Notes under the pieces: model-generated
Databases searched by the model: none
What the model was told of the DNA's origin: nothing
What the model saw: the letters and a program-made list of their open reading frames with translations, nothing else
NCBI GenBank assembly: GCA_014584465.1
Contig: JACTMU010000063.1
Span: 1-41,348, forward strand
Direction of reading: 5' to 3'
DNA length: 41,348 nt
Source of the DNA: Pseudomonadota bacterium
GTDB lineage: Bacteria > Bdellovibrionota > Bdellovibrionia > Bdellovibrionales > JACTMU01
Made by a program: the position numbers and the translations under genes
Shown: in pieces, positions 6,792 through 25,599 of the stretch
Layout: each line of letters opens with the position of its first letter
Numbering within the stretch: position 1 is the stretch's first letter

Positions 6792-6827
6792 AATTCCTCC
6801 TTCTCATTTGCTTCCATTTCCAAAAAA

Positions 6828-6856: not shown

Positions 6857-7012
6857 GTTTCCTACTTCAGAACATCAAATCGTCAATGGATTTTGAAATG
6901 TTGTTTATCTGAACTTGACAAAATGGAAGCAAAAAACACTTTTGTAATAGTTGACATATTATCCGTTTAGGATTCGGAGCTATAGGCTTCGCGTTTTGAA
7001 AGGAGGTGCATT

Positions 7013-7243: not shown

Positions 7244-7606
7244 CGCACGATTGAACTTGTTATGCCCAATGTTGAACTCCTCCAAAAATCACAGTAGCGA
7301 GCCATGACTCTCAGGGTTGGCGAGGTGGTAAGAATGAAGGTGCCATGGGTGTTCAAGGTCATTGTGGATGAATAAGTCCACCACTGGTATCCTGACCCTC
7401 ATCCCTACTTACTTGAGTGATCGGCACCTCCTGCCAGTGAAAATCAAATTGTGATGTGTCCATACATTCAGTATGATAACGACATTAGAATCATCCAATC
7501 TTTTTTACTAGGGGTTCAAATTGCATTATGGCGGGACTGCGCGCTTGGTTGCTGAAGAACTGATGAAGCATCTTATTGCGAGATTACCCAAGGAGAAGAG
7601 ATAACT
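7244..7606. other. Intergenic region, possible gene remnant at its end
   Basis: No complete gene is seen. From about 7513 to 7602 there is an open plus-strand frame of 30 codons (ending HLIARLPKEKR, TAA) with amphipathic, coding-like character just upstream of the acetyltransferase gene. It has no start codon and may be the tail of a deleted gene. Confidence 0.3.
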
Positions 7607-8521: not shown

Positions 8522-8537
8522 ACCCACTTGAGTTGAG

Positions 8538-8572
8538 ATGGACCTTATCCACAATTCATAGACAAGGTCCAT
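8538..8572. terminator. Bidirectional inverted repeat between convergent genes
   Basis: ATGGACCTT (8538-8546) and AAGGTCCAT (8564-8572) form a perfect 9-bp stem with a 17-base loop, between two convergent genes. T-runs after the stem are weak, so intrinsic termination is likely but not certain. Confidence 0.45.
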
Positions 8573-8578
8573 GCAACT

Positions 8579-10192: not shown

Positions 10193-10590
10193 TTGCGACC
10201 TCCCGCTTGGTCGATCAAGTTCTTGAGTTCTTTCAGATCATTTTCATTCAATTTGACCGTATCAAGGAGTTGGCGAACCAGGGCCATGGGAGTGCCATCA
10301 AACACACGGTCCACGACATGTTGAACCGTTCTCGCTTCGTAGTCTGATTTCTTAACTCGTGGGATGTAGATATGACCGCGGCCCTCTTTACGAGCAATCA
10401 AAACTCCCTTTTGTTCCAGGATCCGAAGTATGGTTGAAACCGAGGTGTAGGCCAGCTCCCTCTCTTTTGGGAGTTGTTGAAGGACGTCAGATACGGATCC
10501 CTCCCCCAATCGCCAAAGAATGGTCATCAGCTCAAGCTCTGTTTCAGTTAGCAGTTTGCCTTCGAAACCTTTAGCTTTCTTTTTTTTCAT
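10189..10590 (-). CDS. BlaI/MecI/CopY-family transcriptional repressor
   Basis: A 133-residue winged-helix repressor: LTETELELMTILWRLGEGSVSDVLQQL and AYTSVSTILRILEQKGVL give the typical MecI/BlaI helix-turn-helix, followed by the wing (RKEGRGHIYIPRV) and a C-terminal dimerisation helix region. In known systems the dimer binds dyads in its own promoter and is cut by the BlaR1/MecR1 protease on antibiotic stress. Here it heads a two-gene operon, overlapping the M56 protease by four bases. A 38-bp palindrome lies 24 bp upstream of its start codon, the expected place for autoregulation. A G-rich Shine-Dalgarno site precedes ATG 10590. Confidence 0.92.
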   Translation of the reverse strand: MKKKKAKGFEGKLLTETELELMTILWRLGEGSVSDVLQQLPKERELAYTSVSTILRILEQKGVLIARKEGRGHIYIPRVKKSDYEARTVQHVVDRVFDGTPMALVRQLLDTVKLNENDLKELKNLIDQAGGRK

Positions 10591-10613
10591 TGATCCCCCA
10601 TCTTCAAAAGATT

Positions 10614-10651
10614 AACTAAGAATTTAGTTGTTAACAACTAAATTCTTAGTT
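10614..10651. promoter_or_regulatory. Perfect 38-bp palindrome, predicted BlaI operator
   Basis: Each half contains its own dyad AACTAAGAATTTAGTT (10614-10629) or its mirror AACTAAATTCTTAGTT (10636-10651), joined by GTTAAC at the centre. Two dimer sites side by side is the arrangement expected for BlaI/MecI repressors. On the minus strand TTGTTA inside the palindrome and TAATCT 17 bp later form a candidate promoter, so repressor binding would block it. Confidence 0.8.
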
Positions 10652-10920
10652 GTATTATGCGTCATGAGATTTTTATCACATGATCCTATGCTTATCCAAT
10701 TGACTCAACTCAACGTTGGTGAATTGCACACAAATGCCACTTCAAATGCAACACCCAGAATGCAGTACGCTTTTGGTCGCTATGATATTGCCGCGCGCCA
10801 AACGATCTGCAGTGTATGCTCCACGTAAGACCGTTGAGTTTGATTCTTGACCAAGAATGGGTGCCTACGTAAGTATGGTGTTGGTGCATTCATCTGATGG
10901 TGAAGATGATCTTTCATGCC

Positions 10921-10963
10921 TAGTGCCTGACGCGAAACCTGCTTTCGAGCCAGGCACCACTTA
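10921..10963. repeat. REP-like hairpin element, most complete copy
   Basis: Outer arms GTGCCTG (10923-10929) and CAGGCAC (10951-10957) enclose inner arms CGAAA (10933-10937) and TTTCG (10943-10947) around the loop CCTGC. Partial copies occur at 3526, 7211, 26840 and 31679, and related GGCACCTG strings at the ends of the duplicated blocks. This copy lies 20 bp before the start of the next gene. Confidence 0.7.
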
Positions 10964-10982
10964 GGCAGATTGGTAGTTTGAT

Positions 10983-11720
10983 GTGAATTTGATCTATGAG
11001 GAAAAAAGTAGCTCTGAAGTTCTGGCAGACCCTGTTCTGTTAGAAGAACTGGTGCAACTTTTGACAAAAAGTTGGAATGATCCCCGGACGCTTTTAACTA
11101 AAGATCTAGCTCAGGTGGAACGGGTTCTGTTGGCAAAGGACACCGATGGAAGGATCTTGGGATTTGTCACATGGATTCTACATAAGCTTGAACCTCCCTA
11201 TTTGGAAGCTGCCTATTTTGGATTGGGCTCAGTGCTCAATGAGTTTCAGAGAAGAGGTATTGGTACTATTTTGACCTTCCATGGCTTTAGAAGAGCCCAG
11301 ATTGAGTTAACGGAAAAATATGGTGACCGCCCCGACTCGTTTTTTCTTTGGAGCACGACCATCTCACCTCTTTCACATTTTGGTCTTTACAGTTACCTTT
11401 CAAGCCATTTTGTGCCAGGACCAGATGGTGCTTACAACAAGAAATGGGAAAGGGTGCTTCCTCAACTGAAGGCGTTTTTGAATGTAAAGAAGGATCATGA
11501 GGACCGGCAACACCCTTTTGTCCTGCGCAGCCATGCTCACGCTAGGTTTCTTGAAGATCAGTGGCCAAGTCTCAATCGTGCCCGAGAGTTAGGGAAGCTT
11601 CCGATGTATGATGAAATGAATTTGATTCATGAAAAAGGTGATCTGATCATCATTGCCTTTGAACCCACTCTGGCTGAGATCGACCAAGTTCTAAGCAAGT
11701 TTTCTGAGCAAGCCAATTAA
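10983..11720 (+). CDS. GNAT-like acyltransferase
   Basis: A 245-residue protein with GNAT features in the first half: GRILGFVTWIL (strand beta4), then VLNEFQRRGIGTILTFHGFRRAQ, the acetyl-CoA-binding R/Q-x-x-G-x-G/A loop and helix. The second half (about 130-245) is less typical and may set substrate choice. A GTG start at 10983 is forced by an upstream in-frame stop; the ribosome site is weak. A REP-like hairpin directly precedes it. Its stop overlaps the stop of the convergent gene by four bases. Substrate unknown. Confidence 0.65.
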   Translation: MNLIYEEKSSSEVLADPVLLEELVQLLTKSWNDPRTLLTKDLAQVERVLLAKDTDGRILGFVTWILHKLEPPYLEAAYFGLGSVLNEFQRRGIGTILTFHGFRRAQIELTEKYGDRPDSFFLWSTTISPLSHFGLYSYLSSHFVPGPDGAYNKKWERVLPQLKAFLNVKKDHEDRQHPFVLRSHAHARFLEDQWPSLNRARELGKLPMYDEMNLIHEKGDLIIIAFEPTLAEIDQVLSKFSEQAN

Positions 11721-12790
11721 ACGAAACCAAGATCAATGTAGGTCGAAATACCTTTAGGACAGAGATAGGGCTCTCGCTTGTGCCTACCATAACTCATAAG
11801 CGTCAGGTTGGTTTTGTATCCAAGACCAGTAAGGTTAAGAGATGGTGCATTCCCCCCTAAGCCATCTGCGATAGCTGTAACGCCAAGACATCCCATCTTC
11901 CAAGCTGTGTAACTGATGATCTCCTCAAAATCGGAAACGGCATTTGACATATTTACAAATACCACCTCAGCGGTCTTGATCGGTGCATTTGCTGGAGGAA
12001 ACTCATGAGCTTTCGAAAAAGATCGGCATGTATTCCACGCTTGCCTGATGATTTTAAACTGAATTGGCATCCACGCAAACCCCACCCGCCGAAAGGCCGA
12101 CTGCTCCCAAAGAGCAAAGGCGATTTTCCCAGGCTCAGAAGTGCTTTGATAAAAACGTATGTTGGGATGATCTGAGATAAAGTTGGTAAGATCCTCGCTG
12201 ACCATGGCAAGCCCCAAAAACCTTGTTCTCAGGGACTCGCACAGTTGTTCTAGAGCCACCACCGAGGGACGAAACCGAGTGTAGCTGGGATTTTTTGGAA
12301 ACGTTGGCCTGCGCAAAAGAAGTGATGTTTTGACGGAGTATTTGAGGACCGGCCTAAAAACTCCGTCCATGGGCAAAGTAAGTTTAAATGCGGGTTCGTT
12401 GTTGGATACAATAATTCCAAAGCCATAATAGACTCCGCTTTCATCCAATGCGCTTCCAACTTGATCTAGAAGTCGTTTTGCAATACCTCGATTTTGAAAA
12501 TCTCTAGTGATTCGAAGATCTCCTCCATAGGACATCAACTTTGGGTGTAATGAATTTCCTTCCCAAACCATGCGTTTTTCTACTCTGCTGTGCACGAAAC
12601 CTACCACACGATTCTTAAAGAGCGCAACAAAGTTGAGCGCCTTTGTATGAAAGGAAGAATAGGAATTTTCCAAAGTGTTCGGACGGGACACAACGATCGG
12701 CAGTGTTGTGCTGAAAGGCACCGTCGCCAAAAGATTCTGCACTTGAGGCCAATGTTCTTTACTCTCTAAAGGTCTAATCTCAACGTCCAT
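11717..12790 (-). CDS. GNAT acetyltransferase with second C-terminal domain
   Basis: The N-terminal half (residues 1-150) is a GNAT domain: FVALFKNRVVGFVHSRVEKR, then GGDLRITRDFQNRGIAKRLLDQV with the acetyl-CoA loop RNRGIA-like. The C-terminal half (about 160-357) has no signature I recognise but may be a degenerate second GNAT lobe, as in two-domain acetyltransferases. AGAGGA precedes ATG 12790. It is transcribed alone, convergent with the neighbouring GNAT-like gene. Substrate unknown. Confidence 0.65.
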   Translation of the reverse strand: MDVEIRPLESKEHWPQVQNLLATVPFSTTLPIVVSRPNTLENSYSSFHTKALNFVALFKNRVVGFVHSRVEKRMVWEGNSLHPKLMSYGGDLRITRDFQNRGIAKRLLDQVGSALDESGVYYGFGIIVSNNEPAFKLTLPMDGVFRPVLKYSVKTSLLLRRPTFPKNPSYTRFRPSVVALEQLCESLRTRFLGLAMVSEDLTNFISDHPNIRFYQSTSEPGKIAFALWEQSAFRRVGFAWMPIQFKIIRQAWNTCRSFSKAHEFPPANAPIKTAEVVFVNMSNAVSDFEEIISYTAWKMGCLGVTAIADGLGGNAPSLNLTGLGYKTNLTLMSYGRHKREPYLCPKGISTYIDLGFV

Positions 12791-12934
12791 TCAATCCTCT
12801 TTTATCCAATTCGCTGGCAGCCGCACCTTACAAAGCAATCCCATAAATTCCAACCCGCCTCAAACGGAACCCTTTAGAAACACTATCAAAATCTAATTCA
12901 AATTGCTACCTTCCCAGGAGCAAGATTCTTATCT

Positions 12935-12960
12935 CCATTTCTAATTTCAGATCTGGGTTA
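12935..12960 (-). repeat. 26-bp repeat, copy 1 (downstream of trypsin gene)
   Basis: On the minus strand it reads TAACCCAGATCTGAAATTAG and continues AAATGG; it differs by one base from 13921-13946. Its first three bases are the stop codon of the trypsin gene. Related GAAATT-GAAATGGGCCA sequence is at 36021-36039. Confidence 0.65.
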
Positions 12961-13799
12961 AAAGGGACTGATCTTACCAGCAAGAACGTCTTTCACCCAA
13001 AGACCCAGTAAGGAGGTACTTGTGATGATGGAAAAATTAATCTCAGAATTGACCTCATCTCCACTCTCTTTGGTCTTATGGAAATTGTTAATTCCAATGA
13101 TCTCGGTGTAAGGAGCCTCACCTACATAAACAGGTCCTCCTGAATCACCTTGGCAAAGCGACTGCTGGACAACCCCATCGTAAGTGGGACCTTGTGCCAC
13201 AAGAGGGGTCAATTCACCCACAGCACCCTCTGCGTACTTTAAACGGGGATCCAATTCTGGCGGAAGTTCCCCCGGTCGCTTGAACTGTTCGCATCCATAA
13301 CCCCCAAAGCGAAACACAATCCCCTTTGTGACTATGCCTGATGATAGCGTGCCAACTGCAACATTCAAAGGGATGTGATCTTCAAGCTCAATGACCGCCA
13401 CATCATGAGCACTCTCTACTCCGGGCACAGACCATCTTTTATGGGTCTCAAGAAAGGCAACCGCCTCTTCCGGCAGATAAACTGATTTTATATCGGCGAT
13501 GACATGGTGGTCGGCATGGACACCATATGAGTAAAAGAATGTTCTGCCAAACACCTTCTGGACACCATCAATGTACCTGAAGAGACAGTGTGCTGCCAGA
13601 AGAATATCTTTTTTGATATCGGGATGGCCGTACAAATCGTGATTGTTTTTCCTCGCTCATCGGGCCCCCTATTGACTTGGATTGTGGCTGGGTACTCTCC
13701 GGGTTCCGCGACTTGGCCGCCTACAAGAGCAAAGCCTAACCCTGGCATCAAAGCTATGGTCCACACGAGCCATTTGAAGAAAAAACTGGGCAATCTCAT
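12958..13799 (-). pseudogene. Secreted trypsin-like serine protease, frameshifted
   Basis: Start at ATG 13799, with GGAGGAATT directly upstream. The first frame encodes a signal peptide (MRLPSFFFKWLVWTIALMPG) and the mature-like N-terminus LVGGQVAEPGEYPATIQV, then TICTA. The match then moves to another frame: DILLAAHC (His), HDVAVIEL (Asp) and LCQGDSGGP (Ser), ending at 12958. The break is at a run of six A on the coding strand (T-run 13609-13614); seven A would restore ISKKDILLAAHC. All catalytic residues are otherwise intact. It could be a recent mutation, a slippage site, or a sequencing error. It lies downstream of the nucleoside-type operon after a 158-bp gap and may be a separate unit. 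Confidence 0.85.
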
Positions 13800-13920
13800 A
13801 ATTCCTCCAAGGCAACGACTGTACAACATCACATTCATCACTTCCACTAAGATTTGTCCATTCTCACCCTTTTGAAACTTTTTCATTTCTGCTTTGGTGG
13901 AGCCTTTCATAGTTTTTGGC

Positions 13921-13946
13921 CCATTTCTAATTTCAAATCTGGGTTA
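13921..13946 (-). repeat. 26-bp repeat, copy 2 (upstream of trypsin gene)
   Basis: It matches 12935-12960 at 25 of 26 bases and sits 11 bp beyond the stop codon of the MFS gene. The two copies bracket the trypsin gene in direct orientation, 986 bp apart. Confidence 0.65.
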
Positions 13947-13956
13947 CAATAATCCC

Positions 13957-15198
13957 TCAAGTGGAGGGGCCACTTGACGATTCTGCACACGAAAATAACG
14001 AAGAACTTACCTCCTTCGGTATCTTTCGGACATACCAAAAGAAGAGAACCATACACACAATTGGTAAAATGCCAAGCACGCTCAATGAGTAAGGTTTTGA
14101 GAAATGGTCCATTCCCAAGCCCACACCAAGATACAATAGGCTGGCCATGGCAGCCTCCATCATGCTTTTCAGGGATATGAACGAAGCACGAATCGATGAA
14201 TCCAGATTTTCATGAATGAAATTGGAGAAGAGAGCGTTTACAGGACCCGGCACCAGAGTTGCCCCAAAGAAAGCAACGATTGCCATCGTGGTTGACCCGA
14301 CAAAGTCGCCGAACATTAAAAGACTCGAAAGAGTAAGTGAAATAAGAATAAGAGCGTGAAGAGAGATCTTACTGCCTATCTTGGGAGCCAGTGAGTAGCC
14401 GAGGCCTGACAAAAATCGACTGACTGTGTAAAGACTCGCAATCCAAGCAGCACTTAGACCAAGTGAACTAAATAGTGCCTGGTTAAACATAAAAAAAGTT
14501 AAAAGCGAACTGTCAAACATCCCCCAGATCAATATCAAATGGAACAGATGTCTCCCTCGCCCGCCTCTGCAGAAGTGCCAAACTCTGTTAAATTGATGGG
14601 TCACACCCTTAGCGCTCCCATTCAACCTCTCCAACCTATTGCAAGGCCGACTTTCAACCAAACCCACCGCGAGCATGAATGCAATCGCCATTGCAACCGT
14701 GTAACTCACATAGACGGACTCCCATGAAACTAACTGCAAGATACCTCCAAGAAACGTTGAGATACCCAGAGCAAAGTATGAAACCGCATAGGACTTTGAA
14801 GAAACCTTAACAAAGTCACTTCCCCTCCCCTCATGCTCCAATTGATCGAAAAGTAAAGCGTCATCCGAACCACTCATGAAGGCCATCGCCAAGCCCTCAG
14901 CTAAAAACAAAAGCAAAAAAAGCTCAAAGCTTTGGCCAACCAGGTATCCTGCCGCCGAAAATACCATAAGCCCAGCTCCAACAAGCAGACTCAATCGACG
15001 ACCAAAACGATCCCCAAACATCCCCGTCGGAATTTCTGCCAGGACAGAGGCCAAAAATAAGACAGCCTGCAGCGTGCCGATTTGCACCCCGGAAATTCCA
15101 TGAGAGGCTAGATATAACATGAAAATTCCTCGTGGAAACACCAAGCTACGAAAAAAACAATAGGCTGGAAATATTATGGCAATATTCCTAATTCTCAT
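13957..15198 (-). CDS. Major facilitator superfamily exporter, last gene of the nucleoside-type operon
   Basis: A 413-residue MFS permease with about twelve hydrophobic segments and the family loop GDRFGRR at residues 62-68, between spans 2 and 3. MFS proteins of this kind are proton-driven efflux pumps. Its ATG overlaps the stop of the upstream CHAT-protease gene (ATGA, 15195-15198), so it is translated with the biosynthetic operon. By context it is the best candidate for export of, and self-resistance to, the operon's product. Transport direction and substrate are inferred, not shown by the sequence. Confidence 0.85.
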   Translation of the reverse strand: MRIRNIAIIFPAYCFFRSLVFPRGIFMLYLASHGISGVQIGTLQAVLFLASVLAEIPTGMFGDRFGRRLSLLVGAGLMVFSAAGYLVGQSFELFLLLFLAEGLAMAFMSGSDDALLFDQLEHEGRGSDFVKVSSKSYAVSYFALGISTFLGGILQLVSWESVYVSYTVAMAIAFMLAVGLVESRPCNRLERLNGSAKGVTHQFNRVWHFCRGGRGRHLFHLILIWGMFDSSLLTFFMFNQALFSSLGLSAAWIASLYTVSRFLSGLGYSLAPKIGSKISLHALILISLTLSSLLMFGDFVGSTTMAIVAFFGATLVPGPVNALFSNFIHENLDSSIRASFISLKSMMEAAMASLLYLGVGLGMDHFSKPYSLSVLGILPIVCMVLFFWYVRKIPKEVSSSLFSCAESSSGPST

Positions 15199-17000
15199 AG
15201 AACCAACTGAAAATGCTCACGGCTTGTAGATATCGCGAGATCTTGAACACAGAATGCAGTGAAATAATATGCTTGTGCTGGTGTCTCATCAGAAAACATC
15301 AGGTTAAATTCAAAACGTGTTTCCTCGCCTGCCTTTACTTTTCTCTTTTTCAGAACGGGTTTTTGACTGATGTAAGTGCGGATATAGAGCGGTACAAACA
15401 ATCCGACATGCACTGGTCCGTCCTCTTTGGCAATGACCCGAACTGAAATCGTGAGACACCCACCCGCACGGACTCTCGTCAGACCAAAAGTGTCGATCCT
15501 TGGACCTCTACTCAAAAGAAACTGTTTGTCCCCACAACGAAAGCAAGTCACCGCATCAGTGTCCAAAATCGAAGAAATAATTCCCTTGCGTTGATATCGA
15601 AAGGCTTTGTGCCCACAAGTACATAAAATAGTACAAGCACTTTCCTTCCACAAAACGCTTCGGTCGGCATAGTACTTCTCGAAGTTCATCACGTCGTCTT
15701 CAGGATTCCTCATCACTTGACTTGCGATTGCAAAATCAAGCGACTGTAGATCCGAATCAAGTTCTTTCAAAATGCCTAGTTCACCTAACTTCACTTGGTG
15801 ACGACTTTTCCGTCTAAGCAACCCATTCATCTTTTGATTCAATGAACTGAGTCGGTTTCTAAGCCAATGTTTCGGATTAATAAAAGAGTGGACTAAATAA
15901 CTTTGAGCTCGTGATTGAATATCCAAATATCTTCTTTCTGGAATGAGATCTACGTATTTTTGCACATTCAAAAACTTAGGCACCCCAAACGTCCAAAATG
16001 CGGGATATGGATGTCGCACTCTTAGAGATTCGTTCAATAAATGTGATGAAGAAACGCCGGTATGTACTTCTCGTAACCACAAGTCGTTCTCAGGAAAATC
16101 GGAATCATGCACCGTTAATCCTGCAGATATTGTACGAGCAAATCCATCAATTGCACTTAAGAGCAACAGATACTTAGAGTCATAGAGACCCATATCGGAC
16201 ATTGGAGCACTATTGCAAGCACTCAAGACAATCTCATCGGCTCTCACTTTGGCCAGTGGAATTAGTTTCTCTTCATCCTTATAGCATTTCTGACCACCGT
16301 AGCCACATCGAGGCAACGCATCTCCTATCGATGCCACCTCGGCTCGACCACAAATTGTGTAGTCTGCCAAATTAATACTGTCGTCTTTGCCGTGACCTTG
16401 AAACACTATTTTCTTCCACGATCGACTTAGAATAGTTTCACGAATATTTTCTTCTTCCATTTGGTCTACGTCGAAAACATGGACCCCAGCAACATTGTCT
16501 GGCATCTCTTCTGTGGAGAAAAATCCGATCTCTCCACTTTCCACAAAATGACTTTCTGCAAACTGTTTCGCTAATAACCAACTGAGTGAATGAATATCTC
16601 GACCTGAAACAAATCCAATAGATATGCTATTGTCTTCGAACGAGCTCATTAGTAACCCAAGCACTGAAGATGATTTAAGATCCTGGTAAAGTCCAACAAC
16701 AAGGAGTCTTTCAGAATCCTGAAGTCCTTTGGTCTCATCAATTGATATCCAACGATCACAAACCAACTCTAGCAATTTCCAAATAGGATTCTCAACAAGA
16801 TTTGGTGTCAAAAGCACGCCAACGTCGCCCCTTTCAAACTCGCGCCGTCGCCTATAAAACGACGATGCCACTTTCACCGTATTTTCAATATCCCCGCGTT
16901 TGCCAACAAACACTGGAATCGGCGCACATGGCGTCATAATGAATTGGTATATATGCTCAGAAAAGTCGGATGTACTCTCACTAACTATAAATGTGTTCAT
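15195..17000 (-). CDS. CHAT-domain cysteine protease with zinc ribbon, in nucleoside-type operon
   Basis: I choose ATG 17000 (GGGAG seven bases upstream) over an in-frame GTG at 17027, giving 601 residues. A CHAT (caspase-like) protease fold is seen: KKIVFQGHGKDD gives His203 and EIVLSACNSAP gives Cys262, followed by the family helix-strand pattern LLLLSAIDGFARTISAGLTV and the S-x-x-L-L-N-E-S-L helix. The N-terminal 190 residues have no recognised domain. A zinc ribbon follows (Cys460 and Cys462 in CTCGH, Cys486 and Cys489 in CFRCG), then a beta-rich C-terminus. CHAT proteases are known from separase-like, HetF-associated and CRISPR-linked systems; I know of no role in nucleoside antibiotic synthesis. 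Here it could process a peptide, release a product or confer immunity. Confidence 0.78.
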   Translation of the reverse strand: MNTFIVSESTSDFSEHIYQFIMTPCAPIPVFVGKRGDIENTVKVASSFYRRRREFERGDVGVLLTPNLVENPIWKLLELVCDRWISIDETKGLQDSERLLVVGLYQDLKSSSVLGLLMSSFEDNSISIGFVSGRDIHSLSWLLAKQFAESHFVESGEIGFFSTEEMPDNVAGVHVFDVDQMEEENIRETILSRSWKKIVFQGHGKDDSINLADYTICGRAEVASIGDALPRCGYGGQKCYKDEEKLIPLAKVRADEIVLSACNSAPMSDMGLYDSKYLLLLSAIDGFARTISAGLTVHDSDFPENDLWLREVHTGVSSSHLLNESLRVRHPYPAFWTFGVPKFLNVQKYVDLIPERRYLDIQSRAQSYLVHSFINPKHWLRNRLSSLNQKMNGLLRRKSRHQVKLGELGILKELDSDLQSLDFAIASQVMRNPEDDVMNFEKYYADRSVLWKESACTILCTCGHKAFRYQRKGIISSILDTDAVTCFRCGDKQFLLSRGPRIDTFGLTRVRAGGCLTISVRVIAKEDGPVHVGLFVPLYIRTYISQKPVLKKRKVKAGEETRFEFNLMFSDETPAQAYYFTAFCVQDLAISTSREHFQLVL

Positions 17001-17014
17001 ACAGCTGCTCCCAT

Positions 17015-18007
17015 TTAATACCACCACCCCATATCCCTAGGCAAATATTGCCCTATTTCGTTGCTTGCGCCCGCAGCTGTAGTAGAACATCCCGTACATA
17101 CCAGGGGTCCATAAGATCGAAAAAACTCTGCTTGTGCTCTCGTCGACTCGTTATCAAGATCGAACTTGGAAAAATCTTCACAAGATGCTGCCCATGCCTG
17201 TGCTTCAAGACGGTGAGGTATTAGGCTACAAGCAAAGAGTTGACCTCGCTTCGCATCAAGATACCGAACCCTATCAACTATATGACATTGACCATCTGGT
17301 CGTGGAGTAACTCCTGTCTTGAAATACTCCTCGCGTTCCTTTTTTGTATTGCCACACCAAATCTTTCCAAATGGAACAATGTAGTTGTTCTTGCGACCCT
17401 GAACATAAACACCGTCTATTACTGCTTCAACATCGATTTGATCTTCAATCGAATAGTCCAATGGTCTTTCCAGTTTCAAAGAGGACAACTCCCATTGGTG
17501 GACCCCTAGATCTGAAATTAACTTCTGAATCAATGGCATCTCGCGAAAATTTCCTGGTCCACAGACAGTGTTTACTCTCGTCATCATACCTTCTCCAATT
17601 GCCAACTCTAGACCTTCAATCGCACGACGAAAAAGACCTGGTGTATTTCTCAGTTTGTCATGAATTTCTGCGTTCGAGGCATCAATACTAACGATAACCT
17701 GGTCCAACCCTGCTACCTTTAGTCTTCCAACGTTTCTTGAAAGTAATGATCCATTCGTAATAATTGAGGACTTGAGTCCTGCCTCACGAATTGATTCAAT
17801 GAATCCCAGCAGACTTCGATGCAAAAGTGGCTCACCACCTGTAAATCGAATGCAATTGACACCTATATTCTTTGCGGCCTTTAGAACATACTGGAAGTCG
17901 CTTTCCGAAAGACGATACTTATCAGAGGAACGAGCAAATCCACACATAGAACAGCCTGCATTGCAGCCTTCTAAAAGACGAATGAATAGATAGTCAATCT
18001 GACCCAT
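17015..18007 (-). CDS. Radical SAM enzyme, cytosylglucuronate decarboxylase (BlsE/MilG) type
   Basis: Start ATG 18007 is set by GGAGG six bases upstream (an earlier in-frame start lies within the preceding gene). The 330-residue protein has the radical SAM cluster CNAGCSMC (Cys15, Cys19, Cys22), GGEP at 57-60 and late cysteines (241, 260, 276, 304, 307) that may hold a second cluster. The sequence LFIRLLEGCNAGC and QWELSSLKLER resemble, from memory, the blasticidin S enzyme BlsE, which removes the carboxyl group of cytosylglucuronic acid. The gene overlaps its upstream neighbour by 14 bp and ends 14 bp before the CHAT gene. Radical SAM is certain; the decarboxylase role rests on similarity plus context. 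Confidence 0.8.
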   Translation of the reverse strand: MGQIDYLFIRLLEGCNAGCSMCGFARSSDKYRLSESDFQYVLKAAKNIGVNCIRFTGGEPLLHRSLLGFIESIREAGLKSSIITNGSLLSRNVGRLKVAGLDQVIVSIDASNAEIHDKLRNTPGLFRRAIEGLELAIGEGMMTRVNTVCGPGNFREMPLIQKLISDLGVHQWELSSLKLERPLDYSIEDQIDVEAVIDGVYVQGRKNNYIVPFGKIWCGNTKKEREEYFKTGVTPRPDGQCHIVDRVRYLDAKRGQLFACSLIPHRLEAQAWAASCEDFSKFDLDNESTRAQAEFFRSYGPLVCTGCSTTAAGASNEIGQYLPRDMGWWY

Positions 18008-20363
18008 AAAGATCCTCCACAATATATCGAGCTATTTGATTTTGACCCGGTTCAAAATCATCGAACTTTATGAGATCACTAAGCAGAATCTGTTTCCCAT
18101 CTTCTAAGAATCGATGGATGAAAGATCTGAGATCAGCCTTCTTTTCTTCCAAAATACGCCCAACACAAAACGATACATGGGCGACTCCGGCATCTTCATC
18201 AAGATTCTCATCAACCACAAATTCAGCACCGAACCGACTTAGTGCCATGACCTTCTCGAATCCCCTCTTATTAAAATAACATTCGCTCATGAGTGCCTGA
18301 CTGTAATTTTGGGGCACCAGAAAACCTACATCGACTTTATGGACGATTGCTTCGAGTGTGGTTGTAATGCCTGCCGTCGTCAGAACTTTCCGCGCTGTGC
18401 ATAATTCATCAATAAATGCGTCATGGTCAAAGTGATTCATTCGAACCACTATGTCAGAAGTAATAAGATGATCCTGGAGGTATTCTATTAGTCTGTTATT
18501 GCACGCGAAAACAATCTCCTCAAAACGACCGATAGACTGTTCTAAGATCAATTCTCCTAATATCAGTACATATCTCTTAAAAAATTCCTCCGCTACAAAT
18601 GGGTTACCCGCACCAGAAAAATTGACTAACAACCTATTTGCTTTTTGACGAACGATATATTTAGACTCCGTGATCGGAGCGACCAATGAAACTCCCACTT
18701 TTCCTTTAAGATCTTCAAGTTGATCCTCTGAAACAAGATAGTCTTGTACGAAATAGTGCATTACATTCTCTATGCCAAGAGGAGCGCATTGCCACATCCA
18801 TGCAAGACTGTCAATAATTACCATTTTTAGTTCTGAACACCACAATGGCAACAAAGCAAAATTCATTACATTCACAACAAGATCATGTCCTTCTAGCAAC
18901 TCACAGGTACGTACAATATCTCGATCAACATCGACATCTACAATATTTTCAAATGCAGATTCCCTGAGAACATAATCAAATGCAATCCCTGATCCAAAAT
19001 AGCAGAGCTCACCACTCTCGCCAATTATCGATTTAAGCTGTTTTGCTATATAGACTGCCTTTGCGACAGGACCAAATCCAAAACTTGTAGCGACAAAGGC
19101 TATCTTCATTCTTCGGCAACGAACATTCTCATTCGTCTTAATCACAAAGCATTTCATGATTTCTCTCATACGACTTTCGACTTCACTTACAGATCCGCCA
19201 ACCACATGAACTACGCCGCTCGAACTATGCGAAGCACGGACCTTCGTTATATAATTGCCTTCGGTCACCTTCATTTTTACGTTAACTACACCAGGCAAAC
19301 ACTCAAGATCCTTCTGTGAAGTGATGTTTGTTACATAGCCCGTAGCTGTTGGCAACATAAGATCGCCTGCACATAGATCTTTCGAAAACTTTATATGAAC
19401 TGTGCGGTGTAGATGGATATCTGTAAGTACCTCAAAGATATCAAATCCGTAAGCCAACGCGTGATTTCGCGGAATTTCGCATCCTGCCAATCGTAATCCA
19501 ACTTCGCCAAACGTAATCATACCATCCGAAGAAAGAAAGAACTCCATATGTAGATAACCATGATCCAGCTGAAAACCAGATACAATATTTTGGACAACTT
19601 CATGCAAATCTGCTGGAAGTTGACGGACTTCAGCATCTCGAAGTGTAATATTGGCATTCATACCGCCCTCAACAATCTCAATGGGACTCTCAGGCATATA
19701 GGAAATAAAAGTAGAAAGTACCTTTTGGTTCTGTATGAGAGCGCAACACTCATACTCTCTACCTAACTGTAACTCCTCTGCCATCCACTTACAGCTTTCC
19801 TTGATTACGTGACTTACGGCTTGTACACGTGAAAGTTTGAAAGTGTTGATCGTGGCAAATCCATCCACTGGCTTGAGTATGACTGGCCATCCAACGGCGT
19901 CACCAAATCTAAGGAGCTCCTCTTTACTTGAAATCGGCGTAAATTTTGCTGCCGCAATTCCTATTTCGGCCAACTTTGATTTCATTATGATTTTATTGCG
20001 AACCATTAGGACCTGTTCATCAGAAAGCGCCGGAAGCCCAAGAGCACGCGCAAATGTCTGTGTGATATATTGAGCTGGCTCTGATGGGTTCAGAAAATAC
20101 TGAGGGAGTACGTTTCTAGCTGAGGACCAACTCCTAAAGCGCTCGACCTCATCAACAATATCGATATTGCGGTCTAAGTAAAACGAGGGCAGATGTTCGG
20201 TTTCAGTGATGTATTCGCTTGGTAGAGGGTTGCCCTTGAATCTGAGAAGAACCAGAGAAACATCGCTTCTTTTCAATAGATGTTCAGACAAAGAACACGG
20301 CCGGTCATCAACATACAAGAGTGTAGGCACATCTTTTGAATTAAGATCGTTGAACGATTTCAC
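17994..20363 (-). CDS. ATP-grasp ligase fused to cytosylglucuronate-synthase-like glycosyltransferase
   Basis: A 789-residue two-enzyme fusion with a GTG start one base after the preceding stop. Residues about 1-410 form an ATP-grasp amide ligase: VRNKIIMKSKLAEIGI, WPVILKPVDG (Lys164), GREYECCALI and the metal-binding end HMEFFLSSDGMITFGEVGLRL (Glu274, Glu287). Residues 419-789 form a GT-B type glycosyltransferase beginning MKIAFVATSFGFGPVAKAVY, with DSLAWMW and YFVQDYLV, features I associate with cytosylglucuronate synthases (BlsD/MilC), which join cytosine to UDP-glucuronate. Such enzymes are normally separate. The fusion would couple formation of the nucleoside core with amide-bond formation to an amino acid. 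Domain types are confident; substrates are inferred. Confidence 0.78.
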   Translation of the reverse strand: MKSFNDLNSKDVPTLLYVDDRPCSLSEHLLKRSDVSLVLLRFKGNPLPSEYITETEHLPSFYLDRNIDIVDEVERFRSWSSARNVLPQYFLNPSEPAQYITQTFARALGLPALSDEQVLMVRNKIIMKSKLAEIGIAAAKFTPISSKEELLRFGDAVGWPVILKPVDGFATINTFKLSRVQAVSHVIKESCKWMAEELQLGREYECCALIQNQKVLSTFISYMPESPIEIVEGGMNANITLRDAEVRQLPADLHEVVQNIVSGFQLDHGYLHMEFFLSSDGMITFGEVGLRLAGCEIPRNHALAYGFDIFEVLTDIHLHRTVHIKFSKDLCAGDLMLPTATGYVTNITSQKDLECLPGVVNVKMKVTEGNYITKVRASHSSSGVVHVVGGSVSEVESRMREIMKCFVIKTNENVRCRRMKIAFVATSFGFGPVAKAVYIAKQLKSIIGESGELCYFGSGIAFDYVLRESAFENIVDVDVDRDIVRTCELLEGHDLVVNVMNFALLPLWCSELKMVIIDSLAWMWQCAPLGIENVMHYFVQDYLVSEDQLEDLKGKVGVSLVAPITESKYIVRQKANRLLVNFSGAGNPFVAEEFFKRYVLILGELILEQSIGRFEEIVFACNNRLIEYLQDHLITSDIVVRMNHFDHDAFIDELCTARKVLTTAGITTTLEAIVHKVDVGFLVPQNYSQALMSECYFNKRGFEKVMALSRFGAEFVVDENLDEDAGVAHVSFCVGRILEEKKADLRSFIHRFLEDGKQILLSDLIKFDDFEPGQNQIARYIVEDLYGSD

Positions 20364-20364
20364 T

Positions 20365-21513
20365 TCAAAGACACCTTAAAACTCTGGCATATGCTTCTGC
20401 TTGACGACATTGTTCATCCCTACCAATTTCTGGCGATATTGAAAGACAGATCGTCCGTAGAAGACGATCATGAGTTGATCTAAAGACTTCGGAATTTACT
20501 CGATGGTCTGCAGCAAGACTCCAAGGAAACCCATCGGAGTAGATAGAATTCCTCCCCGTCAGAATTGGATGTTCAGGTAAAAAATATCGTTCAAGCGTCC
20601 AAAACGGCATTCCAGTGGCTTTTAGCGACTCTTCAAGGTTTCTCCGAGCTTCGATAGTCTCCAACTCAATACGGAGACTGATCTTTACATCACCATCCTT
20701 CCGAGGCCTCACAATAAACTTTCCGCTAGGGTTAATCGAACCAATAAGTGCATCGTAACCATTCTGAAGATCACCAAGAATGTGATCAAGGTGCCCTAGC
20801 TGTTGAAGCTGAACTGATGCGACAAGTTCTGATGTTGTAAAGTTCTCACCATAAAATGCGCCTGCATGCCACTTTGGATACTGACCATGTATTCGTGACG
20901 AACCGTGATCATGATATCTTCGCATCAACTCCCACACTTCTTCATCGTGAGTCAATACGAGTCCCCCCTCACCGCTTGTCAAAACTTTATTGTGATGAAA
21001 GCTGAAGGTTCCTGCAAAGGATCTCGTTCCAACATGGGTCCCATCAGCATGACGCGCCCCCATCGCCTGAGCGCAATCTTCTACAACATACTGAGCACTA
21101 GGAAGTGGGCCTACAGACCCCTCCATATGGGCCACTACAATCCGCTTTGCATCCTTAGGAATTTTATTTGGGTCTAGTGCAAAATTCTCGTCAACATCAC
21201 ATAGAACCGGAATCATTCCACATGAGAGAATGGCTCCAGCAACGGCTATGAAGGTGACAGCTGGTATGTACACCTTGTCACCGATTGCTGGACGAGTGGC
21301 AAGAAGTGATACACGCAAGGCTTCTGTGCCGTTGTGACATGCAAGTGCCCTTCGGACGTCAAATCGACGTTCACAGGCCCGTTCAAATTTAGTCGCAACA
21401 CTTTCACCGAGAGTTTGATATCTGAAAAGAATTTTATGATTGATGGAAGACTTCAGATCATTCATTTCATTTAGATCAAGATAGTTTGCCCCATAAGGTA
21501 GTTTTCTTAGCAT
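20365..21513 (-). CDS. DegT/DnrJ/EryC1/StrS-family PLP enzyme (BlsH-like)
   Basis: A 382-residue sugar aminotransferase-type protein. Features of the family: NGTEALRVSL near residue 61, PAVTFIAVAGAIL, VVEDCAQAMGA with Asp146, and SFHHNKVLTSGEGG with the PLP-binding Lys176. These enzymes transfer an amino group to a keto-sugar or, in some cases, dehydrate it. In blasticidin S clusters a DegT-family enzyme acts on the decarboxylated cytosyl sugar, so this one probably installs the 4'-amino group that is later acylated. Its ATG (GGGGA eight bases upstream) overlaps the preceding gene by seven bases. Confidence 0.85.
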   Translation of the reverse strand: MLRKLPYGANYLDLNEMNDLKSSINHKILFRYQTLGESVATKFERACERRFDVRRALACHNGTEALRVSLLATRPAIGDKVYIPAVTFIAVAGAILSCGMIPVLCDVDENFALDPNKIPKDAKRIVVAHMEGSVGPLPSAQYVVEDCAQAMGARHADGTHVGTRSFAGTFSFHHNKVLTSGEGGLVLTHDEEVWELMRRYHDHGSSRIHGQYPKWHAGAFYGENFTTSELVASVQLQQLGHLDHILGDLQNGYDALIGSINPSGKFIVRPRKDGDVKISLRIELETIEARRNLEESLKATGMPFWTLERYFLPEHPILTGRNSIYSDGFPWSLAADHRVNSEVFRSTHDRLLRTICLSISPEIGRDEQCRQAEAYARVLRCL

Positions 21514-22628
21514 TGCTCTGTCCCCATATAAGATGTGATATCAGAAATTTCTTTCTTGTAATTGCGAATTATCGTTTTACCCTCATCTGTACATTGGAAA
21601 TAGATCGGTGTGATTGGAATCTTTCCCAATCTCGTAGCAACAACGTATTGCGGCACCGAAAATCCTGTCTCAAATCCAGTAAGCCCCTCCATGATCTCAG
21701 TGCCTAACCCTATAGATGTACGAAAATGTGAAACTCCTACAATATTGTCGCAATGATACAAATAGTAGGGACGGACCTTAATCTTTACCAGTTGCTTTAT
21801 TAAAGCTCGCATAACATCAAGGCTGTCATTGATTCCCTTCAGCAAAACACTCTGATTTTGTACAGGAATTCCATGCCGAATAAGGCTCTCAACCGCAGCA
21901 GCCGATTCTTGCGTGATCTCACTGGGGTGATTAAATTGTGTATTGACCCAAATTGGGCCATAGGTGCTTAATATCAATAACAGTTTCGGTGTGATTCTCT
22001 GTGGAAGCACCACTGGAAATCGACTGCCGATCCTGATAATATTTATGTGAGGAATAGAACGCAGACGCGAGATAAGAAACTCGAGCTTGGCATCACCTAA
22101 CGATAACGGATCCCCACCTGTCAAAAGAACATCGTCGATTTCCGTATGTGATCGAATATACTCCAAGTCTCTATCCATCGAGTGATCGACTTCTGGACCA
22201 AAATAGGTGCCATCTCTGCTTGTGGTGTGATACTTGCGAGTGCAATGCCGACAATAGACTGGACAGATATCAGACACCAGGAAAGCAACTCGATTGGGAT
22301 ATTTGTGGATCACACGTGCCGTTTTCAGGTTCTGACGATCTCCCACGGGGTCAACACTAGAGCCTTCAAACTTTAGACTCTCTTTTTGACTCGGAATCGC
22401 CTGAAGTCGAAGTGGACAACGAAGATCCGTTTTATGCATCAACGATGCATAGTAAGGAGAAATTCGAAATTTATAGATGTCTTTCAAGGCCTGAATCGCT
22501 TCGCATTCCGAGTCCGAAAGATTGATCCATTGTGCGAGACCATCCACAGTAGTGATAGAGTTTCGTATTTGAAACTCATACGAATTCCACATTTCTTCTG
22601 GAAACGAGCTTTTGGTTAAGTATGCCAT
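21507..22628 (-). CDS. Lysine 2,3-aminomutase (KamA)-family radical SAM enzyme, BlsG-like
   Basis: A 373-residue aminomutase that needs a [4Fe-4S] cluster, SAM and PLP to move an alpha-amino group to the beta carbon. Seen: CPVYCRHC (Cys122, Cys126, Cys129), DVLLTGGDPL, QFNHPSEIT, LYHCDNIVGVSHFRT, and GKIP with the PLP lysine Lys334. The first substrate-amine-binding aspartate of lysine 2,3-aminomutase is kept (Asp292), but the second, in the usual YVVDAP-GGGGK segment, is replaced (YVVATRLGK, Ala at 329). So lysine may not be the substrate; arginine, as for BlsG, is a natural candidate. GGGAG lies eight bases before ATG 22628. It overlaps the preceding gene by 53 bp. Confidence 0.88.
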   Translation of the reverse strand: MAYLTKSSFPEEMWNSYEFQIRNSITTVDGLAQWINLSDSECEAIQALKDIYKFRISPYYASLMHKTDLRCPLRLQAIPSQKESLKFEGSSVDPVGDRQNLKTARVIHKYPNRVAFLVSDICPVYCRHCTRKYHTTSRDGTYFGPEVDHSMDRDLEYIRSHTEIDDVLLTGGDPLSLGDAKLEFLISRLRSIPHINIIRIGSRFPVVLPQRITPKLLLILSTYGPIWVNTQFNHPSEITQESAAAVESLIRHGIPVQNQSVLLKGINDSLDVMRALIKQLVKIKVRPYYLYHCDNIVGVSHFRTSIGLGTEIMEGLTGFETGFSVPQYVVATRLGKIPITPIYFQCTDEGKTIIRNYKKEISDITSYMGTEQC

Positions 22629-23175
22629 CGGTTGACTCCCTGTTCAATTGAGAAAATGTCTTGTTCGTTTTCTGATCTAGTAGCTGTAGATCACACATTC
22701 TAAGTTGCTCTTTGATTTGAGGAAACAACTCAAATCTCCACACTTCTCTGGTTGGAAGAACTTGAGGTGATGAATATCGAATTGTATGCACCCTTGTAAC
22801 GGTTGAAAGACCTTCTACCAAGGGAGTCTTTTCACCGACCCTGTCGTTGATCAAGAGAATGATCGGCTTTCTCATTGCGCTTGCCCAACCTAATTCAAGA
22901 TGAACTCCAAAACTACTATCGGGCAAGGCAATGATAACATCAGATTGTTCCATTCCAATCTTATCAAGTTTTGTGCATTCGGTTCCGACCATGAGTTCTT
23001 GACCATACTTCTCTCTCTCAATCGCGCAGAACACCTCAAGATTCAGATCCGTTCTAAGCATTGAGAGAATTGACTCAATCGAACTCTGCTCTATTGGATC
23101 GAAGAAATCGGGTTTGATCATCAATGAAGTAATTGGAGTGGCAAGAAACACTCTATTGAGTTCTTGGAAGCTCAA
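22576..23175 (-). CDS. CMP N-glycosidase-like enzyme (BlsM/MilB, nucleoside deoxyribosyltransferase fold)
   Basis: First gene of the operon. A TTG start at 23175 fits a G-rich Shine-Dalgarno run five to six bases upstream; no ATG is nearby. The 199-residue protein has the nucleoside 2-deoxyribosyltransferase fold: VFLATPITSLM at the N-terminus, SDVIIALPDSSFGVHLELGWASAMRKPIILL with the expected nucleophile Glu94. In blasticidin S and mildiomycin pathways, homologues (BlsM, MilB) hydrolyse CMP or hydroxymethyl-CMP to the free base that feeds the glycosyltransferase. A general deoxyribosyltransferase is the alternative, but the neighbouring cytosylglucuronate-type genes favour the CMP hydrolase reading. 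The last 30 residues look like an extension beyond the fold. Confidence 0.78.
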   Translation of the reverse strand: MSFQELNRVFLATPITSLMIKPDFFDPIEQSSIESILSMLRTDLNLEVFCAIEREKYGQELMVGTECTKLDKIGMEQSDVIIALPDSSFGVHLELGWASAMRKPIILLINDRVGEKTPLVEGLSTVTRVHTIRYSSPQVLPTREVWRFELFPQIKEQLRMCDLQLLDQKTNKTFSQLNRESTDGILNQKLVSRRNVEFV

Positions 23176-23566: not shown

Positions 23567-23587
23567 TTACTTTACTTAGTAAAGTAA
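23567..23587. promoter_or_regulatory. MarR-type palindromic operator
   Basis: TTACTTTACT and AGTAAAGTAA form a perfect 10-bp inverted repeat around a single central T, 36 bp before the MarR gene start. Size and symmetry fit a MarR dimer site. Confidence 0.65.
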
Positions 23588-23622: not shown

Positions 23623-24084
23623 ATGGATTTGGATCAGCTTCACAAACAACTCTCTCTGTTGGCGCGACGATATCAGTTGCGGGGACCACGGGAACCTCTT
23701 GCCTTGGGCCTGACGGTTTCAGAAGGGTATGCCCTTGGGATATTGACAGAGGCCTCTTCGCTAACCATGGGACAGTTGGCAGCAGAGCTTCGTCTATCTC
23801 TGGCGGCTGCAACCAAGATCGTTGCGAGGCTTTGCAACCTGGGGTTTACCAAGAGAGCCGTCGACCGATTGGACAAGCGAGTGCAGCATGTCTTGGCGAC
23901 CCAGAAAGGTCGAAAGGCCTATTCCAAGCTTCAGGTTCAATTCAAAGATCATCTCAAAAACTCTTTGGAGGGCTTCACGTCGAAGGACATTGCCACCATG
24001 GTCAAAGGGATCGAAAATATCAATTTATCTATTGATCAGTGGCGAGCAAAAAAATCGAGAGAGGTTGCAAGAAGTACTTCATGA
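23623..24084 (+). CDS. MarR-family transcriptional regulator
   Basis: A 153-residue winged-helix regulator: LTVSEGYALGILTEASSLTMGQLAAELRLSLAAATKIVARLCNLGFTKRAV, then the wing DRLDKRVQHVLATQKGRKAY, in the expected order. MarR proteins usually respond to small molecules and repress their own operon. The start is supported by GAGGTG about six bases upstream. A 21-bp palindrome lies upstream, and a GNAT gene follows after 72 bp in the same direction. It faces away from the nucleoside-type operon and could in principle regulate it across the shared intergenic region. Confidence 0.85.
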   Translation: MDLDQLHKQLSLLARRYQLRGPREPLALGLTVSEGYALGILTEASSLTMGQLAAELRLSLAAATKIVARLCNLGFTKRAVDRLDKRVQHVLATQKGRKAYSKLQVQFKDHLKNSLEGFTSKDIATMVKGIENINLSIDQWRAKKSREVARSTS

Positions 24085-24156
24085 CCGAGATTGGATACAT
24101 TAAGTCAAGCAGAAAGATCTACGAACTTTTGCACAAGGAAAGAAGATGAGGGATCT

Positions 24157-24612
24157 ATGAATTTTCGAAGAGCCCACAATGCAGATGCCTCTGCCATTCA
24201 AGATGTCGTATTTTCCACATTGAGAGAGTATGGGTTAAAACCCGACCCGAAAAAGACAGATTTAGATTTAACCGATTTGGATCGATCTTACTTTTTAAAG
24301 GGCGGCTACTTTGAGATATGCGAATGGCAGGGAGAGGTGGTTGGGACCTGGGGCCTGCTGCCCTTATCAAAGGATAGCTGTGAACTAAGGAAAATGTATC
24401 TAAAGTCTATGCACCGGGGCAAGGGCCTCGGGAAGACAATGATTGAAAGAGCTCTAAAAAAGGCAAGAGAACTTGGATTTAAACGCGTTGAACTCGAGAC
24501 TGCATCCGTTCTCCGTGAAGCCCTGGACCTTTACCAGAAGTATGGTTTTAAACCGGTTACGGGCAAACGCCTGGCCCACCGCTGTGACCAGGCCTTTGAG
24601 CTCTTTCTCTAA
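24157..24612 (+). CDS. GNAT N-acetyltransferase
   Basis: Start ATG 24157 is chosen because GAGGG lies five bases upstream; a longer frame from 24091 has no ribosome site. The 151-residue protein is a clear GNAT: GEVVGTWGLLPL, CELRKMYLKSMHRGKGLGKTMIERALKKARELG with the R-G-K-G-L-G acetyl-CoA loop, then LYQKYGFKPV. It is probably co-transcribed with the MarR gene. Regulator-plus-acetyltransferase pairs often serve in drug inactivation; whether this protects against the neighbouring operon's product is speculation. Confidence 0.85.
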   Translation: MNFRRAHNADASAIQDVVFSTLREYGLKPDPKKTDLDLTDLDRSYFLKGGYFEICEWQGEVVGTWGLLPLSKDSCELRKMYLKSMHRGKGLGKTMIERALKKARELGFKRVELETASVLREALDLYQKYGFKPVTGKRLAHRCDQAFELFL

Positions 24613-24813: not shown

Positions 24814-25554
24814 TTAATCTCGACGAAACAGAGTCGTCGTAAAAATTCTTTCAAAGCCAAGATGTCTGTAGAACTCTTCCACATAGGAATCTTGCTTCAC
24901 CTGCAAAGTGACCACGCTCGACCCTCGATCGTGGGCCTCATGGATCGCACAGTTGATGATCGTCGTGCTTATCCCCTTTCTTCGATGCTCACTCAGAGTT
25001 GCCACAGCATAGATTCCGCAGAAACTCCCTTCAAAAACAGAGAGCACGGTCCCCACCGGAACTCCGTTCAAACTTCCAACATAGAAGATCTGATCTTGGT
25101 TTTTCAGATTGCGATGGTTGGCCGCCGACAGCCACGGGTGCCACTGAGCAAAACTCTCCGATGTCTCATTGAAACCCTTGCCTTGCACAAGGCTGAAGGC
25201 GTCCATTTGATCAGGGCGGACGACCTTCACGACATCAAGGTCATCCCTAAGTCTCCACTGCTCGATGGCCCCCTCTTCAAGAACCATGTAGGAGAAGCCC
25301 ACAATGGGTTGAAATCCCTGGCTCTGAAGCTCGGCCGCACTCATGCCACTCCAAGGAAAATGCTGAACGACCTTTGTACCAGGTCGAAGATCCTCCATCC
25401 TGGAGGATGGTCCCAACAGGGCATAGGCAAACTCGGGGCGATCACTCTCAATGTAGGTTAGGTCGCCAACTTGCTGGACCAACCCCCGGTGGGTGGAGAG
25501 AAATGCCAAGTGGTTCCGCACCAATGCTTGTTCCAACTGCCCTATTTTGGCCAT
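24814..25554 (-). CDS. GNAT N-acetyltransferase
   Basis: I choose ATG 25554 (AGGAGG about seven bases upstream) over 25575. The 246-residue protein has a divergent N-terminal half and a C-terminal GNAT domain: YVGSLNGVPVGTVLSVFEGSFCGIYAVATLSEHRRKGISTTII with the R-R-K-G-I acetyl-CoA loop, then FYRHLGFERIFTTTLF. It is followed after 17 bp by the small YHS-like gene. Substrate unknown. Confidence 0.78.
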   Translation of the reverse strand: MAKIGQLEQALVRNHLAFLSTHRGLVQQVGDLTYIESDRPEFAYALLGPSSRMEDLRPGTKVVQHFPWSGMSAAELQSQGFQPIVGFSYMVLEEGAIEQWRLRDDLDVVKVVRPDQMDAFSLVQGKGFNETSESFAQWHPWLSAANHRNLKNQDQIFYVGSLNGVPVGTVLSVFEGSFCGIYAVATLSEHRRKGISTTIINCAIHEAHDRGSSVVTLQVKQDSYVEEFYRHLGFERIFTTTLFRRD

Positions 25555-25599
25555 TATCTGCCTCCTTGCGTCCAATTTTGATCCAAATCAAAAATAGAC

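Follow-up and report, generated by a model that had tools for sequence, protein, structure and literature searches.

What would a set of genes resembling the blasticidin S pathway be doing in a genome of the phylum of Bdellovibrio? The question is raised by seven minus-strand genes at positions 13957 to 23175 of contig JACTMU010000063.1 (41,348 nucleotides, the whole of which was analysed and is here called the window). A first reading made from the letters of this DNA (the sequence-only reading) had proposed a blasticidin S/mildiomycin-like operon in which five genes match the BlsM, BlsG, BlsH, BlsD and BlsE steps. This proposal held: the best matches were to the bls and mil families and not to unrelated ones, with the BlsD domain weak at 44 bits, and the same gene set is clustered in other genomes, co-occurring in more than 20 actinobacterial clusters. 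The evidence supports a blasticidin-type cluster that is new of its kind in this phylum and a variant of the known pathway, and we put at roughly 0.78 the probability that the operon makes and exports a blasticidin-type peptidyl nucleoside without N-methylation.

Organization of the operon

The genes, with lengths in amino acids (aa), are as follows:

22576 to 23175, minus strand: BlsM/MilB-like cytidine monophosphate (CMP) N-glycosidase, 199 aa, TTG start; first gene of the operon
21507 to 22628, minus strand: BlsG-like probable arginine 2,3-aminomutase (KamA family), 373 aa
20365 to 21513, minus strand: BlsH-like DegT/DnrJ aminotransferase dependent on pyridoxal phosphate (PLP), 382 aa
17994 to 20363, minus strand: fusion of an ATP-grasp ligase (BlsI-like, aa 1 to ~410) with a cytosylglucuronic acid (CGA)-synthase-like domain (BlsD-like, aa 419-789); internal ATG at 19109
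17015 to 18022, minus strand: BlsE-like radical S-adenosylmethionine (SAM) enzyme; likely true start ATG 18007
15195 to 17027, minus strand: predicted CHAT-fold protein, homologue of the protein at the blsK position; likely true start ATG 17000
13957 to 15198, minus strand: major facilitator superfamily (MFS) exporter, 413 aa; last gene

All seven frames are open and lie where the sequence-only reading had placed them, overlapping or nearly abutting. Given that the gaps between successive genes are only −53, −7, +1, −29, −13 and −4 bp, they were taken as one compact operon, an arrangement that is unaffected by the revised starts of the BlsE-like gene (ATG 18007, behind GGAGG) and of the CHAT gene (ATG 17000). 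Together they cover eight functions with bls counterparts: BlsM, BlsG, BlsH, BlsI fused to BlsD, BlsE, the blsK-position protein and the MFS exporter.

Identity of the biosynthetic enzymes

In a search of the Protein Data Bank (PDB), the solved structures that best matched the first gene product were CMP N-glycosidase 4jen (1e-18) and BlsM 5vto (4.5e-18), as its naming in the sequence-only reading had anticipated, whereas 2'-deoxynucleoside 5'-phosphate hydrolases reached only 1e-3; the Pfam family PF05014 fell just under its cut-off. All 11 invariant columns are kept (11/11), including E55, D71 and E94.

The KamA-family protein scored 555 bits (5e-167) with the arginine 2,3-aminomutase model TIGR04468, against 395 and 372 bits with the lysine and glutamate models; the cut-off of TIGR04468 is 600 bits, and the blsG orthologues of Streptomyces and Saccharothrix score 651-654. 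It is 53-57% identical to actinobacterial blsG and retains the CxxxCxxC cysteines C122/C126/C129 and K336. The general family assignment made earlier was thus correct and can be refined, the protein being best read from its sequence as an arginine 2,3-aminomutase; identity as a lysine aminomutase or EpmB was ruled out by the model scores. The DegT protein (PF01041, 5e-46) is 51-55% identical to blsH of actinobacterial clusters, and the PLP lysine K176 in its SFHHNK motif is invariant. Invariant columns were kept in 153 of 213 cases in the aminomutase and 122 of 145 in the DegT protein, both sets having been defined against close-knit actinobacterial sequences.

The proposed fusion of ATP-grasp and cytosylglucuronate-synthase-like domains is a single open frame of 789 aa. 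Its ATP-grasp part matched LAL_C2 of Pfam (1.4e-7) and an L-amino acid ligase in the PDB (6e-20), is 39-44% identical to blsI and keeps 34/40 invariant columns. The CGA-synthase-like part (40/45 columns) matched TIGR04467 with 1e-11 over aa 426-694, and shares 42% identity with the CGA synthase adjoining blsE in an Ardenticatenales locus (L012) and 35% with that of Mesobacillus (L013).

The BlsE-like protein gave 337 bits (1e-100) with TIGR04466, whose cut-off is 400, and is 48% identical over 315 aa (3.8e-88) to the crystallised cytosylglucuronate decarboxylase 7vob. It retains the radical SAM cysteines C20/C24/C27, E64 of the GGEP motif and C309/C312, with 50/51 invariant columns kept. By sequence it can be placed among BlsE-type radical SAM enzymes acting on CGA, and a generic radical SAM or MoaA identity was rejected (93 bits vs 337). 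The family had been recognised in the sequence-only reading under the label of a decarboxylase, which is now superseded: judging by the title of Lee et al. (2022), as cited in PMC11117688, BlsE is described as a 1,2-diol dehydratase, and this fits a pathway that keeps the carboxylate. The last gene, already taken for an MFS exporter, encodes a PF07690 protein (4e-21) that shares 39% identity with the MFS gene immediately following the CHAT gene in the Ardenticatenales locus, 32% with that of Mesobacillus and 31% with that of Lactococcus nasutitermitis (L052).

Proposed pathway and product

Gene content, families, catalytic residues and cluster conservation were computed, and from characterised relatives we infer the reactions, what is made, what the CHAT protein does and a toxicity that acts through the ribosome. 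The BlsM-like enzyme would release cytosine from CMP, and the CGA-synthase domain would join it to UDP-glucuronic acid, giving CGA; a UDP-glucose-dehydrogenase-family gene elsewhere in the genome could supply UDP-glucuronate. BlsE forms a 4'-keto-3'-deoxy sugar from CGA, and its homologue here would do so by dehydration. The BlsH-like aminotransferase would then place an amine on C4' to give cytosinine, the BlsG-like aminomutase would convert L-arginine to beta-arginine, and the ATP-grasp domain would form the amide between the two, yielding demethylblasticidin S. An aminoacyl cap may be added or exchanged by the CHAT-fold protein through its Cys/His pair, and the MFS protein would export the product. 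Elsewhere the genome encodes two full-length M1 aminopeptidases, enzymes of the class by which the leucyl cap is taken off as blasticidin S matures (PMC4664946).

The BlsL guanidine N-methyltransferase is not in the operon and gave no match genome-wide, nor did the CGA synthase-related blsF (TIGR04469) give one in the genome. Since neither was found, no N-methyl group is expected, and the gene content makes demethylblasticidin S or an aminoacylated form of it the likely product.

Several points weigh against this assignment. The scores with three equivalog models (TIGR04466, TIGR04467 and TIGR04468) lie under the curated cut-offs, and the CGA-synthase domain is the weakest, with its 44 bits set against a cut-off of 300 and its acceptor and donor only predicted. 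In this regard, the CGA-synthase and BlsE homologues of the Ardenticatenales and Mesobacillus loci are also below the curated cut-offs, and the CGA-synthase homologues adjoining blsE in these two and in Paenibacillus helianthi (L014) score 60-93 bits with TIGR04467, likewise far under 300. In addition, blsF is present in the actinobacterial clusters; it was likewise not seen in the non-actinobacterial ones, and for this reason we regard it as lineage-specific and not defining. A dedicated resistance gene was not evident, and the ATP-grasp domain might accept a different amino acid.

The last point leads to a rival within the same class, a cytosine nucleoside with another acyl group or sugar, which would arise if a different amino acid were coupled by the ATP-grasp domain or if the CGA-synthase-like domain drew on another base or sugar donor. 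The low score of that domain agrees with it, as does the existence of the Mesobacillus and Lactococcus clusters, which have neither aminomutase nor ATP-grasp genes and thus indicate that the class is chemically diverse. It must be considered, however, that the aminomutase, aminotransferase and ATP-grasp domain of the window are clearly closest to blsG, blsH and blsI, and we therefore hold such a variant to be rather unlikely.

The CHAT-fold protein

The sequence-only reading had called the sixth gene product a CHAT protease. None of 28 members of its family matched Pfam, and the protein itself gave no meaningful PDB sequence match. In a predicted model of the N-terminal half (pLDDT 87, pTM 0.90) the only significant fold matches were separase and Craspase TPR-CHAT, while the search with the whole protein was uninformative because the C-terminal beta-sandwich dominated it. 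H212 (codon 16392-16394), within a GHG motif, and C271 (codon 16215-16217) are invariant among the homologues, and 69/73 invariant columns are kept. The model therefore argues for a caspase-type, separase/Craspase-like fold with a His/Cys pair, so that the fold call was right, with peptidase activity as one of two compatible roles. Craspase TPR-CHAT (Csx29) and separase share with it this predicted fold and the residue pair, but the window protein has no recognised TPR repeats, carries a Cys-rich stretch of its own (pairs C469/C471 and C495/C498) and the beta-sandwich, and occurs in biosynthetic clusters.

Almost every complete actinobacterial cluster of blasticidin type that was found has a homologue at 28-40% identity, as do the Ardenticatenales, Mesobacillus and Lactococcus loci, and 30 homologues sit in clusters of this type. 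By its sequence conservation, the CHAT gene is a core gene of these clusters and not an oddity or an extra. In the plasmid cluster of Kitasatospora sp. NBC_00039 the annotated order is CGA synthase, blsE, blsF, blsG, DegT, ATP-dependent ligase, MFS, a "hypothetical protein" (the CHAT homologue), methyltransferase and N-glycosidase. The bls letters follow gene order, and from this cluster the CHAT gene was placed, by position, at blsK. A CHAT-fold-like fragment, apparently broken up, was also seen at 6355-6870 of L067, a 15-kb plasmid of Bombilactobacillus folatiphilus from a stingless bee.

With respect to its role, the pathway has been shown to leucylate demethylblasticidin S along the way, and as of 2017 this step had no assigned enzyme (PMC5572114). 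The bls cluster at first yielded only leucylblasticidin S in S. lividans, where the host PepN proved to be the enzyme that takes the leucyl group off (PMC4664946), so the blsK product did not remove it there. On our reading of gene content, every gene of the cluster except blsF and blsK has an evident role. Among BlsE loci with enough flank, CHAT presence tracked the ATP-grasp gene (both in 26, neither in 8, one only in 3 and 3; Fisher p = 2.7e-4, a statistic that ignores shared ancestry). Among the exceptions were the Mesobacillus and Lactococcus loci, with a probable carrier protein, and those of P. helianthi and Anoxybacillus (L022), which have a GNAT-type transferase instead, GNAT-fold transferases being a known class of aminoacyl-tRNA-dependent enzymes (PMC12945691). 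A 220-aa protein of the Mesobacillus locus resembles class II aminoacyl-tRNA synthetases by eye, with no library or PDB match in support.

For these reasons (the leucyl step without an assigned enzyme, deleucylation by PepN, the co-occurrence with ATP-grasp and its exceptions) an aminoacyl-transfer role is cautiously favoured, at somewhat less than even odds. We tentatively propose that the proteins at the blsK position are aminoacyltransferases of caspase fold, the Cys of which takes an aminoacyl group from tRNA or a carrier protein and caps the nucleoside amine; by exclusion, the CHAT protein may be the leucyl (aminoacyl) transferase of the blasticidin S pathway. This would give the caspase/CHAT fold a catalytic part in antibiotic assembly that a 2026 review of aminoacyl-tRNA-dependent biosynthetic enzymes does not mention (PMC12945691). 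The main rival, a protease that removes the cap or processes a protein, is possible though somewhat doubtful: all significant fold matches are proteases and the His/Cys pair is invariant, yet in S. lividans leucyl removal fell to a host enzyme and not to a cluster gene, and it is the leucyl-adding enzyme that lacked an assignment.

CHAT proteases are also known from bacterial immunity, as in Craspase (PMC9729208), and the radical SAM protein had weak pVip matches, which would suit a defence or signalling system pairing a modified nucleoside with a caspase-like effector against phages. This is very improbable, given that PADLOC returned nothing past the generic radical SAM core, the CHAT family is found in antibiotic-type clusters with an exporter, and no relative occurred in viral contigs.

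Comparison with known and related clusters

The bls cluster of Streptomyces griseochromogenes and its ~25 actinobacterial relatives share with the window blsE, blsG, blsH, blsI, the CHAT gene at the K position, blsM, an MFS exporter and, as a putative counterpart, blsD, with aminomutase, aminotransferase and ATP-grasp contiguous in the order G-H-I in both. The window differs in having BlsI fused to BlsD and blsM in first place, in having neither blsF nor blsL, and in an exporter that is not of the actinobacterial blsJ type by sequence and matches that of the Ardenticatenales, Mesobacillus and Lactococcus loci. These three have in common with it a block of blsM, putative CGA synthase, blsE, CHAT and MFS, although no blsM was found adjoining in the Ardenticatenales locus. 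They hold the closest relatives of its CGA-synthase domain and MFS protein, and the nearest BlsE is that of the Ardenticatenales (52%). In Mesobacillus selenatarsenatis (8423-17416) and L. nasutitermitis (8433-17225) the block is followed by a DegT gene more distant from that of the window, accompanied by the probable carrier and two uncharacterised proteins. The mildiomycin cluster shares the CMP N-glycosidase, BlsE/MilG, DegT aminotransferase and, on the putative identity of the window's domain, the CGA synthase; the window has neither a MilA-type CMP hydroxymethylase nor the arginine-modifying genes MilM/MilN (named in PMC11784345).

Other arrangements were also observed. The loci of P. helianthi (6337-13769) and Anoxybacillus (732-7012) contain blsE, CGA synthase, ATP-grasp, DegT and blsM, with the GNAT-type gene (Acetyltransf_6) and no CHAT. 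In metagenome-assembled genomes of Desulfatitalea (L041, 7595-12021) and Lysobacterales (L047, 9956-14333), BlsE-DegT-CGA-synthase-like genes precede a gene for a GT9-type glycosyltransferase, which hints at BlsE-derived compounds or glycans of another class.

Distribution, origin and host genome

A scan of genome contigs revealed 48 BlsE-related loci, mostly in Actinomycetota and also in Bacillota, Chloroflexota, Thermodesulfobacteriota, Pseudomonadota and Cyanobacteriota. Antibiotics of this family have been investigated almost exclusively in Streptomyces. The earlier statement that such clusters are known from Streptomyces was too narrow, since cluster relatives also occur in Bacillota and Chloroflexota, as they do in Pseudonocardiaceae and Micromonosporaceae. 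When 369 genomes of the phylum were searched with a family profile, the CHAT protein turned up in one, that of the window, and in 98 relatives from the order no BlsE candidate scored better than generic radical SAM proteins do.

The BlsE tree joins the window to the Ardenticatenales locus, outside the actinobacterial clade, and the CHAT tree places it between the Ardenticatenales/Mesobacillus/Lactococcus group and the actinobacteria; both placements are tentative because of long branches. A recent transfer from Streptomyces is unsupported, as this BlsE falls outside the actinobacterial clade, although its exact place beside its Ardenticatenales neighbour is unsure. The cluster looks deep-branching and mosaic: BlsM, CGA synthase, BlsE and MFS resemble the Ardenticatenales and Mesobacillus genes, and the aminomutase, aminotransferase and ATP-grasp resemble the actinobacterial ones. 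The fusion lies at the seam and probably arose there.

The description of the genome as of Bdellovibrionota type proved right at the level of order, since the order includes a family carrying Bdellovibrio-specific primer sites. All 10 genomes tested from that family had the 16S site, and of 8 tested from outside it, among them that of the window, none did; two species of the family's main genus also carry the hit-locus primer site. The window's genome belongs to a different family.

It might be argued that the cluster is decayed, silent or mis-binned, since a single genome of the 369 from the phylum carries it, a broken serine-protease gene lies just downstream, and the operon has a G+C content of 0.432, against 0.45-0.49 in the flanks, with a weaker tetranucleotide agreement. 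Nevertheless, the seven frames are open with nearly all invariant residues kept. The tetranucleotide pattern of the contig is like the rest of the genome and unlike foreign loci (correlations with eight other genome pieces of 0.30-0.56 for the flanks and 0.23-0.41 for the operon, foreign loci being mostly below 0.3), and a flanking argininosuccinate lyase-like gene is 42-46% identical to relatives in three same-order genomes. Mis-binning of the contig is thus unlikely, and we give little credence to this explanation as a whole.

Neighbouring genes

The operon is flanked by genes in opposite orientation or unrelated to it: upstream MarR and GNAT genes form a pair, and downstream come GNAT genes and a trypsin-like gene that is broken. 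The divergent promoter region contains:

23567 to 23587, no strand: 21-bp perfect palindrome, candidate operator of the MarR regulator at 23623-24084

This palindrome, TTACTTTACTTAGTAAAGTAA, lies just upstream of the MarR-family gene and its GNAT partner, divergent from the operon, and was matched in none of 100 shuffles, even allowing 3 mismatches. GNAT acetyltransferase-type genes occur on both sides (7607-8521, 10983-11720, 11717-12790, 24091-24612 and 24814-25575), one of them fused to a glyoxalase-type domain. Acetylation can inactivate blasticidin S; no specific match supported a resistance role for these flanking genes. The trypsin-like serine protease gene directly downstream (12958-13910) is apparently split across two frames, as a pseudogene or by assembly error. 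At 8579-10192, a BlaR1-type M56 peptidase domain is fused to an SLT transglycosylase domain, an unusual sensor-like architecture. The argininosuccinate lyase-like gene (37335-38708) shares the contig with an arginine-consuming operon, probably by coincidence.

Implications

A classical ribosome-inhibitor pathway is hereby extended to the phylum of Bdellovibrio and, taken together with the Bacillota and Chloroflexota relatives, this suggests that blasticidin-type biosynthesis is widespread and modular. A "hypothetical protein" conserved in nearly all complete clusters becomes a concrete enzyme hypothesis and, if true, a CHAT aminoacyltransferase would fill the leucyl-transfer step of blasticidin S biosynthesis. 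For rebuilding the pathway in a laboratory host, this compact seven-gene version, in which two steps are fused, offers a convenient minimal set. Use of the product on prey is speculation; if the organism is predatory, the operon would let the role of small-molecule translation inhibitors in predation be tested.

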